42,333 bases of DNA from Actinomycetes bacterium (GTDB lineage: Bacteria; Actinomycetota; Acidimicrobiia; Acidimicrobiales; Acidimicrobiaceae), in NCBI GenBank assembly GCA_021799875.1, contig JAJYZP010000013.1:1-42333 (forward strand). Direction: 5' to 3'. Below are positions 12,240 through 15,481 of this stretch, in pieces. Positions within the stretch are counted from its first letter, which is position 1. Each line of letters begins with the position of its first letter. The notes below the pieces were generated by a model. It was not told the DNA's origin and did no database searches. It saw only the letters and a list, made by a program, of their open reading frames with translations. The translations under genes and the position numbers were made by a program.

Positions 12240-12725
12240 CTACTTGACCGGGCGATAGCGATAGGAGCTCCCAAATCCGAGCGCCATAGCGGTGGGAAAG
12301 AGCTCCTCTGTGGCCGCCAGTGCCGCCCCTAGGTAGGTATCGAGCAGCTCACTGCTCATATCGCTCGTCTTCGCACGCCCCACGAGATAGAGTGCTTCAT
12401 CCCGATGCTGAGCGCTGTGCAGGTAGGTCATCTCGTAGTTGCGCCGGAGAAGATACTGCAAGACAAGCACCTCATTCTTCTGAGGATATGGCATCAGGAA
12501 GGTCTCAAATGAGGTGGACCGTTCGCCGACTGCCACCCATAACATCACGAACTCTTTACAGTGCGCACGGAGCCTGATACCAAAACGAGTATCTCCATCG
12601 TCGCGCACAGTGCCAACGATGTCACTACCCTCTTCGACGCTGGCTCCGGTCCACAACACAAGCGACTCGACGAGCTCTATGCGTCGTTCCAGCGAGACCA
12701 GATCTACCTGCTTCGTGTTATCCAC
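12240..12725 (-). CDS. YbjN-domain protein
   Basis: This is a 161-residue soluble protein resembling the actinobacterial YbjN (type III secretion chaperone-like fold) family found immediately beside mshA, for example the Rv0487/Rv0486 pair. Visible features are YLLRRNYEMTYLHSAQHRDE and an SDMSSELLDTYLGAALAATE helix near the C-terminus. No catalytic motif or membrane segment is seen, and its biochemical role is not known. It starts inside the 3' end of mshA (8-bp overlap), so the two are probably co-translated. Confidence 0.7.
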   Translation of the reverse strand: MDNTKQVDLVSLERRIELVESLVLWTGASVEEGSDIVGTVRDDGDTRFGIRLRAHCKEFVMLWVAVGERSTSFETFLMPYPQKNEVLVLQYLLRRNYEMTYLHSAQHRDEALYLVGRAKTSDMSSELLDTYLGAALAATEELFPTAMALGFGSSYRYRPVK

Positions 12726-13956
12726 AACGAAGAAGCTCGTGAGACGAGAGCGATGCTACGACATCTAAGAAACTTCGAGCGCTCTCCTTCCAGGTGAATC
12801 CACTAGAGACCTTCAGACCACCTGCTCCCATCAACGATGCACGCTCGTCGGAGGCGAGGATCTCTGAAAGAGCATCTCGAAAATCCTCAACGGTTCTCTC
12901 CGGCACCAAGAGTCCACTTCGGCGATGTCGCACGAGCGACACTAAACCTCCAACCGCCGATGCCACAACTGGACGGCCAGAGGCGGCGGCCTCGAGTGCA
13001 ACGAGCCCGAAACTCTCGGTTCGAGACGGTATCACAACGACGTCACAGGCTCGATAGTACGAGGAAAGGAGCTCATGTGCCTGTGGATCGACGAGGTGGA
13101 GCCGATCGGAGACGCCGAGCTCTCGAGCGATGGTGACGAGGCGCTCGTACTCCTCTACGCCTTCTATCCCAGAGGGGCCACCGACGATGACGAGGTGAAG
13201 ATCGAACTGGCTACGCAGAGCTCCGAGAGCCTCCACCGCCAAGGTAAAACCCTTGAGCGGCTGAATACGACCGATGGCAAGCATGATCTTCGATCCAAGT
13301 GGAAGACCAATCGCACGACGTGCCATCTCCTTGGTGCCAGGGGTGAAGAACGCCGTGTCCACTCCAAGTGGTACGGTCCGAACCTGAGCGGGTTGCACTC
13401 TGTAGAGCTCGCTCACCCATCGAGCCTCCGGTTCACACGAGACGATGATGGCGTCCGAGCAGCTCATGGCTCGTTGCTCATTAATAATTCGCACCCGAGA
13501 ATCGACGCCATCATCTGGCCGCTCACGCCCGACCTGCTTTACACGCTCGAGGGTGTGAAAGGAGGTAAACAGCGGTACGTCAAGTTCATGCTTGAGTGAG
13601 TGGCCAACAATGCCCGAGAGCCAATAGTTTGCGTGAACGACACCAACGCTCTCTTCGCCGGCCTTGGTGAGGACTTCGAGAGCGGCGTCGGTAAAGTTCG
13701 GGACATACTCCAGGAGCTCTTCTTTGGGAAGCGGCGAGGGGTCACCCGCAGTCACATTAAAGACCCGAAAGTTTGGCTCAACGGTCACGATATCGGCCTG
13801 GTCAATCGAGCTTCGACGCGTCAGGACATCACACTGCACCCCAAGCCTCGCAAGAGCACTGGCCAAACGGCGAACGTAGACGTTCATGCCGCCGCTGTCA
13901 CCTTTTCCAGGCTGATCAAGCGGAGAGCTATGGTAAGAGACGACCGCTATCCTCAC
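12718..13956 (-). CDS. mshA: D-inositol-3-phosphate glycosyltransferase (MshA)
   Basis: This GT4 enzyme transfers N-acetylglucosamine to inositol 3-phosphate, the first committed step of mycothiol synthesis. It has the N-terminal VSYHSSPLDQPGKGDSGGMN and the TSFHTLERVKQVGR segment. The C-terminal Rossmann domain has AIGRIQPLKGF and the nucleotide-binding VVIPSRTESFGLVALEAAASG. The length of 412 residues is normal. The start is a GTG at 13954-13956 because it gives the canonical MRIAVVSYHSSP; its ribosome site is weak. Mycothiol is largely restricted to Actinobacteria, so this gene is a strong taxonomic marker. Confidence 0.93.
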   Translation of the reverse strand: MRIAVVSYHSSPLDQPGKGDSGGMNVYVRRLASALARLGVQCDVLTRRSSIDQADIVTVEPNFRVFNVTAGDPSPLPKEELLEYVPNFTDAALEVLTKAGEESVGVVHANYWLSGIVGHSLKHELDVPLFTSFHTLERVKQVGRERPDDGVDSRVRIINEQRAMSCSDAIIVSCEPEARWVSELYRVQPAQVRTVPLGVDTAFFTPGTKEMARRAIGLPLGSKIMLAIGRIQPLKGFTLAVEALGALRSQFDLHLVIVGGPSGIEGVEEYERLVTIARELGVSDRLHLVDPQAHELLSSYYRACDVVVIPSRTESFGLVALEAAASGRPVVASAVGGLVSLVRHRRSGLLVPERTVEDFRDALSEILASDERASLMGAGGLKVSSGFTWKESARSFLDVVASLSSHELLRCG

Positions 13957-13986: not shown

Positions 13987-14018
13987 TTGAATCAGGCTCG
14001 TTTTGAATCAGGCTCGTT
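13987..14018. repeat. perfect 16-bp tandem duplication at the rsiG-like 3' end
   Basis: The unit TTGAATCAGGCTCGTT occurs twice head to tail (13987-14002 and 14003-14018). The second copy contains the stop codon of the rsiG-like gene and the first lies in the spacer before mshA. The duplication does not change the encoded C-terminus. Confidence 0.9.
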
Positions 14019-14529
14019 CTTCACGCTCAAGCAGCGATTCAACGGTCGCATCCCCACTTTTATAGCGAGAGACCATCTCTGCCGAGAGCACTTCAATGAC
14101 ACCATGTAACTGAGTTCGAGTCGAAGATATTCCCCGTTCCACGGAGTTCAAAAACTCCAAAGAGTCCGCAACTCCCGCGTCGTGACCAGTCATCTCGTTG
14201 AGCCACTCTTCAGCTAACGCTCGGTCGTCACTTCCGATCTCCACCTCGACGAAGCGAGCAGATCCACCTCCTCCGTGAGCTCCGTGATCTCCAAGTGCTC
14301 GAACGACCTCCCCGGTGAGGTCTCGGTCGGAGTTACCAGCGTGACCTGCACTAACCGCCAAGAGATCGATTCTCGCTTGCAACGTGCGCCTCACATAGGA
14401 GAGGAGATTTTCCGCGCGAACGGCCCGATCTCTCTTCGACCTGACCTCTTCGACACTGAGGTCGCTCAGACCCTCTGTAAAAGAAGTTGACCCAATCTCA
14501 CTGAGTTCGCTGGCTAATGATTGACTCAC
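14008..14529 (-). CDS. RsiG-like c-di-GMP-binding anti-sigma factor
   Basis: The 173-residue protein is predicted to form two long helices joined by a Gly/His-rich linker. Helix 1 carries a perfect E(X)3S(X)2R(X)3Q(X)3D motif (E40, S44, R47, Q51, D55, within ENLLSYVRRTLQARID). This is the c-di-GMP signature of RsiG, the anti-sigma of WhiG in Streptomyces. Helix 2 has a degenerate copy (E125, S129, R132, then S136 and Q140). The start is a GTG at 14527-14529 with AAGGAG six bases upstream; it overlaps the sodX 3' end by 32 bp. By family knowledge it would sequester a WhiG/FliA-type sigma when c-di-GMP is bound. No such sigma gene is in the window. Confidence 0.75.
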   Translation of the reverse strand: MSQSLASELSEIGSTSFTEGLSDLSVEEVRSKRDRAVRAENLLSYVRRTLQARIDLLAVSAGHAGNSDRDLTGEVVRALGDHGAHGGGGSARFVEVEIGSDDRALAEEWLNEMTGHDAGVADSLEFLNSVERGISSTRTQLHGVIEVLSAEMVSRYKSGDATVESLLEREERA

Positions 14530-14962
14530 TACCGTCTCCTTCAACACTTGAACCGCTCCTCGCGTCCAGTGAGCCAGCACGAGACGCCGGAAAATACCGA
14601 TACCTCGCTACTCCCTCGACCAAAGAGAGATCGACAAAACCGAAATGCCTCGAATCGGTGGATGAATCCGCATTGTCACCACGTACTTCAATGCGGTCGT
14701 GGAGAACTCTGACCACACGCTTGATCATATGACGTCGCTGATCACGGGGATCCCGCACCACCACAATCTGACCGGGACGTACCGCCTCTACCGAACGCAC
14801 CACGACGAGCCGATCCCCCGCTCTCAACGTAGGCTCCATGGAGTCCCCGGTCACCTCGACACGATGCAAGGGAACGCCACCTAGGACCGCACGGAACGCA
14901 CTTCGGAGCGAACGAAGCACGCCCCGAATCAGCGAAACAGTACGACCTTGGGGAGTGGCCAC
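14498..14962 (-). CDS. sodX: S26-family protease, likely nickel-SOD maturation protease (SodX)
   Basis: This is a small signal-peptidase/LexA-like serine protease. The catalytic serine lies in VTGDSMEPTLRAGDRLVVV and the catalytic lysine in HMIKRVVRVL. Conserved RGDNADSSTDSRHFG follows. Its divergent position 102 bp from sodN matches the usual sodN-sodX partnership, in which SodX removes the SodN propeptide to expose the nickel-binding His1. I chose the GTG at 14960-14962, which has AAGGG upstream, giving 154 residues. A TTG at 15013 would add 17 residues without a ribosome site, and an internal GTG at 14920 is also possible. No clear membrane helix is seen. The stop lies inside the rsiG-like gene. 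Confidence 0.82.
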   Translation of the reverse strand: MATPQGRTVSLIRGVLRSLRSAFRAVLGGVPLHRVEVTGDSMEPTLRAGDRLVVVRSVEAVRPGQIVVVRDPRDQRRHMIKRVVRVLHDRIEVRGDNADSSTDSRHFGFVDLSLVEGVARYRYFPASRAGSLDARSGSSVEGDGSESIISQRTQ

Positions 14963-15064
14963 CGAGCATCGCCCTTTCCGGCTGGAGAAACAACGTGAGA
15001 ACTCTTTCGACAAGGGTAATGTTATCGGTATTCGCTCAAGACGAATGTTGCAAGGAGAGAAGAA

Positions 15065-15481
15065 ATGAAGATTGCATCCGCCCTGTTAAAGCTCCTCGAT
15101 ACCGTGAGCGCTCCCACCTCTGTCAGCGCACACTGCGACCTTCCCTGTGGAGTGTACGATCCAGCGCAGGCACGTATCGAAGCTGAGTCAGTCAAAGCAA
15201 CCATGGAAAAGTTCAATGCATCAAACGACCCAGTTTTTCAACAACGAGCCACCATCATCAAAGAGGAGCGTTGTGAGCTCGTCAAGCATCATCTCTGGGT
15301 GCTCTGGACCGACTACTTCAAGCCTGAACACCTCGCCAAGTACCCTAACCTACATGAGCTCTTCTGGAAGGCCACGAAGAGCGCTGGCGAAGCTAAGAAG
15401 ACCAATGACGTCGCAGTTGCGAGTCGACTCCTCGACGAGATCGAGGAGATCAACACCATCTTTTGGGACTCCAAGAAGTAA
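15065..15481 (+). CDS. sodN: nickel superoxide dismutase precursor (SodN)
   Basis: The enzyme disproportionates superoxide in the cytoplasm with a mononuclear Ni centre. A 22-residue propeptide ends before the Ni hook HCDLPCGVYDP (H23, C24, D25, P27, C28, Y31 of the precursor). The mature part would be 116 residues, as in Streptomyces NiSOD. Further family residues follow (RCELVKHHLWVLWTDYFKPEH). The ATG has AAGGAGAGAAGAA just upstream, a strong ribosome site. It is monocistronic, followed by a terminator. In Streptomyces, sodN is nickel-regulated through Nur; I did not identify a Nur box here. Confidence 0.96.
   Translation: MKIASALLKLLDTVSAPTSVSAHCDLPCGVYDPAQARIEAESVKATMEKFNASNDPVFQQRATIIKEERCELVKHHLWVLWTDYFKPEHLAKYPNLHELFWKATKSAGEAKKTNDVAVASRLLDEIEEINTIFWDSKK

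Follow-up and report, generated by a model that had tools for sequence, protein, structure and literature searches.

Our analysis of the window, a stretch of 42,333 nucleotides from an Acidimicrobiaceae genome, indicates that one of its genes very probably encodes a canonical twin-motif RsiG, the c-di-GMP-dependent anti-sigma factor of WhiG, as judged from sequence comparison. In the proposed mechanism, c-di-GMP would arm RsiG, which would then hold WhiG inactive until c-di-GMP falls and WhiG is released, and, through this switch, high c-di-GMP would reduce the expression of flagellar genes. The high confidence applies to the RsiG-WhiG part of this reading, whereas the flagellar part stands at roughly even chances. 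The gene and its neighbours are as follows:

14529..14008, minus strand: rsiG, 173 aa from a GTG, putative c-di-GMP-dependent anti-sigma factor of the twin-motif type
14536-14541, minus strand: AAGGAG, Shine-Dalgarno-like, 6 nt 5' of the GTG at 14529 (read off the sequence)
14498..15013, minus strand: sodX, Ni-SOD maturation protease (NCBIfam TIGR02754, 6.4e-20), conserved upstream neighbour of rsiG
15065..15481, plus strand: sodN, nickel superoxide dismutase (TIGR02753, 2.5e-47), divergent from sodX
12718..13956, minus strand: mshA-like glycosyltransferase (TIGR03449, 4.2e-108, below the equivalog cut-off), conserved downstream neighbour of rsiG

The open reading frame that an earlier note on this DNA had reported at 14008-14529 exists and is read on the minus strand. 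An alternative GTG at 14580 would extend the protein to 190 aa; the relatives begin near the later GTG. The start of rsiG overlaps the 3' end of sodX by 32 bp. The order sodX-rsiG-mshA together with divergent sodN is common to most of the Acidimicrobiaceae loci tested, family assignment being taken from named records (Ferrithrix thermotolerans, L183, and 'Acidimicrobiaceae bacterium' MAGs). The exceptions are four loci of genus g6 with no sodN match within the stretch covered, locus L020 without an MshA match and locus L022, which showed none of these neighbouring genes. Across the wider class, rsiG also lies close to mshA at many loci. The placement of rsiG behind sodX and apart from a sigma gene, which the earlier note had correctly observed, is the normal arrangement in Acidimicrobiaceae and nothing out of the ordinary.

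Assignment to the RsiG family, already proposed from the sequence alone, was borne out by database comparison. The Pfam family PF22802 (RsiG) matched the protein in two stretches (E 2.9e-17, 62.5 bits; gathering score 27), and a PDB sequence search aligned S. venezuelae RsiG (6pfj) over residues 21-167 with an E-value of 2.3e-8, while single-motif RsiGs matched at 2e-4 to 8e-4. No FlgM match was found in the protein with Pfam, and a scan to E 10 gave RsiG only. An AlphaFold2 model built from 59 sequences (mean pLDDT 86.4, pTM 0.78) contains long helices at residues 26-63 and 120-158. At E <= 0.001, its only PDB matches were the S. venezuelae RsiG chains 6pfv_T, 6pfv_E and 6pfj_T, with TM-scores of 0.56-0.64 against the RsiG chains of 6pfj/6pfv and ~31% identity in the structural match. 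The predicted fold is thus the antiparallel coiled coil of RsiG seen in 6pfj, as the reading in the earlier note requires. Relatives across the class were gathered by a search with a seven-row RsiG alignment; queries with the single protein or the 59-row alignment returned no matches. In the family tree of RsiG, the window protein forms a long branch of 1.12 changes per column, the placement of which is poor.

The earlier reading also called for a WhiG/FliA-type sigma factor in the genome, and one was found among the five sigma-70 proteins with region 3. Its gene lies on contig C35, flanked by rpsB and a XerC-like recombinase gene (both neighbours named by eye), and the protein scores 362 bits against the NCBIfam equivalog NF004935 (cut-off 343) and matches S. 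venezuelae WhiG (6pfj) at E 4.1e-90. In the solved complex, the WhiG residues contacting c-di-GMP are K57, G61 and R62 in S. venezuelae numbering (PMC8325347), and K, G and R are kept at these positions in the WhiG of this genome. These comparisons identify the protein as a clear WhiG orthologue and the predicted partner of RsiG, encoded on a contig other than that of rsiG. It is the only sigma factor of FliA/WhiG type in the genome, which also encodes 13 GGDEF domains. By analogy with the Streptomyces and Rubrobacter structures, we infer that the window protein binds c-di-GMP, sequesters WhiG and acts as a monomer, and that Glu146 takes the place of Asp at one of the sites that read guanine.

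Twin-motif RsiG had already been reported in three of four Acidimicrobiales, and RsiG-WhiG has been described as the one sigma/anti-sigma pair known to be a target of c-di-GMP. Among 395 class genomes, we found both proteins in 234, RsiG only in 13, WhiG only in 14 and neither in 134, WhiG being counted at E ~1e-78 or better. The Fisher p for this co-occurrence is 3e-72, a value that overstates independence, as the genomes are related and shared ancestry was ignored. At the level of gene content, the pairing of RsiG with WhiG across the class is plain. In several members of the family, WhiG has R-S-R or K-S-R instead of K-G-R (L073, L074, L076, L078-L080, L082, L084, L089, L092 and L093). Three WhiG homologues (G056:C26, G090:C314 and G270:C125) have one TGA inside the matched stretch, and each may be a pseudogene, contain a frameshift, have been matched past its own stop or reflect an assembly fault.

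The flagellar part of the reading begins with the gene content of the genome, which encodes FlhA, FliM, FliR, flagellin, FliS and FliW, further flagellar export genes (read by eye) and CsrA. In 19 of the 23 family genomes outside genus g8 (0.22 expected from shuffles), flagellin is preceded, at comparable distances, by an element of the form T-N-A-A-G, 14-16 bases, N-C-G-A-[A/T], which recurs across seven genera; the pattern is loose and was drawn up after inspection of the same loci, which are related, so these counts are descriptive. In the window genome, the element reads TAAAG, 15 bases, then GTCCGAAGA. The textbook flagellar consensus matched at only 9 of 12 positions at this flagellin gene, a level that the best of 50 shuffles equalled or exceeded, and a genome-wide count of WhiG-type promoters at two mismatches (84, versus 67 for a reversed-pattern control) was not informative. 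Outside g8, the flagellated family genomes have no sigma of FliA/WhiG type other than WhiG, and in the class RsiG is present in 61 of 69 flhA-bearing genomes. On this evidence, the chances are about equal for and against a WhiG regulon in Acidimicrobiaceae that includes flagellin and a switch that gates flagellin.

In genus g8, the flagellin element was found in none of four genomes, RsiG is absent from eight of nine genomes and most genomes are without the RsiG and WhiG pair. Two g8 genomes, G037 (C13; L096, L155) and G041 (C91; L095, L168), have a divergent FliA-type sigma whose gene shares a contig with flagellin. It is the only sigma of FliA/WhiG type found there and is possibly a replacement of the WhiG-RsiG system.

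In flagellated Acidimicrobiaceae, RsiG-(c-di-GMP)2-WhiG could, with odds that we consider balanced, be a flagellar anti-sigma system in which RsiG does the job of FlgM and the second messenger directly blocks flagellin transcription. FlgM, the usual anti-sigma factor of flagellar FliA, would be alike in holding a FliA/WhiG-type sigma that transcribes flagellin, but it is a protein unrelated to RsiG and is released by secretion, whereas RsiG would be armed by c-di-GMP. The outputs published for RsiG-WhiG are sporulation in Streptomyces and type IV pili in Rubrobacter; RsiG, WhiG and flagella together would, if the idea is true, give a third output, namely direct c-di-GMP control of flagellar transcription. 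Loss of FlgM has been reported for those later flagellated classes of the phylum that lack FlgFG (PMC10746217), among which the text of that survey of actinobacterial flagella appears to place Acidimicrobiia; WhiG is not mentioned in it. According to a paper of 2021, flagellated Actinoplanes are without RsiG (PMC8325347), and a search confined to open-licence papers found none tying RsiG to flagella in the class. The flagellar link makes a reasonable lead, one that could probably be put to the test in relatives already in culture, among them Acidimicrobium ferrooxidans and Ferrithrix thermotolerans.

Alternatively, RsiG may hold WhiG while the main regulon, like that of Rubrobacter, covers type IV pili or c-di-GMP enzymes instead of flagella; we regard this as possible but rather unlikely. 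The genome encodes type IV pilus-type (PilB/PilT-type) ATPases on contig C179, and a WhiG-type promoter with one mismatch lies ~40 nt 5' of a GGDEF-domain gene on contig C11 (L108 1501-1527), echoing Rubrobacter, in which WhiG-type promoters precede genes for c-di-GMP enzymes. Moreover, flhA is absent from 186 of the 247 RsiG-bearing genomes of the class, so flagella are not a universal target and other targets must exist. However, promoter matches on the pilus contig are two-mismatch only, the element upstream of flagellin spans seven genera, and WhiG is the sole sigma-28-type factor in a genome with flagellar genes. The promoter before the GGDEF gene might also form a feedback loop. The only two exact TAAA-N14-16-GCCGATAA matches in the genome (L105 ~1501-1528 and L106 748-774) were not used, as both are oriented away from their nearest convincing genes and neither has a convincing gene downstream; each lies outside a gene for a large, probably secreted protein, within ~100 bp of its start.

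The c-di-GMP motifs of the window protein matter less than the flagellar lead and are ordinary once the register is corrected. They are placed as follows:

14365..14412, minus strand: motif 1, first long helix, residues 40-55, ENLLSYVRRTLQARID, E40-S44-R47-Q51-D55, intact
14092..14139, minus strand: motif 2, second long helix, residues 131-146, ERGISSTRTQLHGVIE, E131-S135-R138-H142-E146
14110..14157, minus strand: 'motif 2' of the earlier note, residues 125-140, E125-S129-R132-S136-Q140 (ESRSQ), out of register

Motif 1 is intact (ESRQD), in agreement with the earlier note, and its E, S and R are nearly invariant in an alignment of the window protein with 58 relatives. For helix 2, the earlier note had described a decayed copy, ESRSQ. 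These letters are real, but they lie six residues too early and are not the homologous motif. A script listing all registers found the ESRSQ set and, six residues later, ESRHE, which fits the motif better. In the 59-row alignment, E131, S135 and R138 are invariant (59/59), whereas the columns of the ESRSQ register are variable, column 129 being Ser in one row of 59; ESRSQ was therefore rejected as motif 2. With it falls the claim of one intact and one decayed motif, and also the evolutionary reading built on that claim.

Compared with E(X)3S(X)2R(X)3[Q/H](X)3D, motif 2 fits at four of five positions and has Glu for Asp at the last, a change within the range seen in relatives. Column 142, the fourth position, is His in 37, Phe in 17 and Gln in 5 of the 59 rows, and column 146, the last, is Asp in 54, Asn in 2, Lys in 2 and Glu in 1, the window protein. 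His often stands in place of Gln in motif 1 of RsiGs, and the His-bearing RsiG of C. woesei binds c-di-GMP (PMC8325347). By this comparison, His at the Gln site of motif 2 is standard, and Asp146 to Glu is the sole departure, a conservative one. Among ~100 RsiGs examined, a sample of Acidimicrobiaceae and higher-scoring class matches that leans to canonical motifs, five others have Glu for Asp in the first helix and three others in the second, and because it recurs in other RsiGs the change lies within normal drift. Among 40 later loci, two gave no readable motif pair.

The window protein has the same length as the twin-motif monomer of Streptomyces venezuelae (6pfj/6pfv), the same two-helix antiparallel fold in the model and two motifs in register, but motif 2 is E-S-R-Q-D there and E-S-R-H-E here, and the target is sporulation there and probably flagella here. 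It also resembles other Acidimicrobiaceae RsiGs (L173, L183 of Ferrithrix thermotolerans and those of MAGs) in family, in rsiG-mshA linkage and in having two motifs, with the last position of motif 2 being Asp in most of them, Lys or Asn in the Ferrithrix-type proteins and Glu in the window protein.

The same position leaves some room for an asymmetric RsiG, in which motif 1 works, motif 2 is weakened by Asp146 to Glu and c-di-GMP is bound unequally at the two ends. It is this Asp that reads the Watson-Crick face of the outer, splayed-out guanine (PMC8325347), and in genus g5 (Ferrithrix-type) three RsiGs have Lys or Asn there and a fourth has Glu, which suggests that the constraint is relaxed near the window lineage. 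Nevertheless, Glu keeps the carboxylate, the remaining four positions of motif 2 are standard and the same substitution occurs in the other RsiGs counted above, which makes asymmetry improbable for this protein.

The earlier note's reading of an in-between state, a transitional homodimer midway between the Rubrobacter type (single motif) and the Streptomyces type (twin motif), had nothing in its favour beyond the misregistered motif and is scarcely credible. The protein is full-length and has two helices, the second of which aligns with those of twin-motif relatives; all relatives with both helices locatable carry two motifs, so that any loss of a motif would be secondary. The RsiG of Rubrobacter radiotolerans (7lq2-7lq4, a single-motif homodimer) is similar in its first-helix motif and in its WhiG partner, but the window protein possesses a second helix (120-158) and a second motif of its own and would have no need to dimerise; the dimerisation proposed in the earlier note likewise came from the misread register. 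The canonical twin-motif monomer remains the preferred reading of the window protein.

Better candidates for a truly asymmetric RsiG than the window protein are the proteins with Lys, Asn or Gly at the last position of motif 2, namely L008, L009, L024, L063, L198 and L204; L008, L009, L024 and L204 comprise Ferrithrix-type RsiGs plus one other. In addition, MAG G023 has two different RsiG genes (L178 on C110 and L177 on C138), whose motifs 2 end in Lys and Glu, and which represent either a paralogue or a mixed bin.
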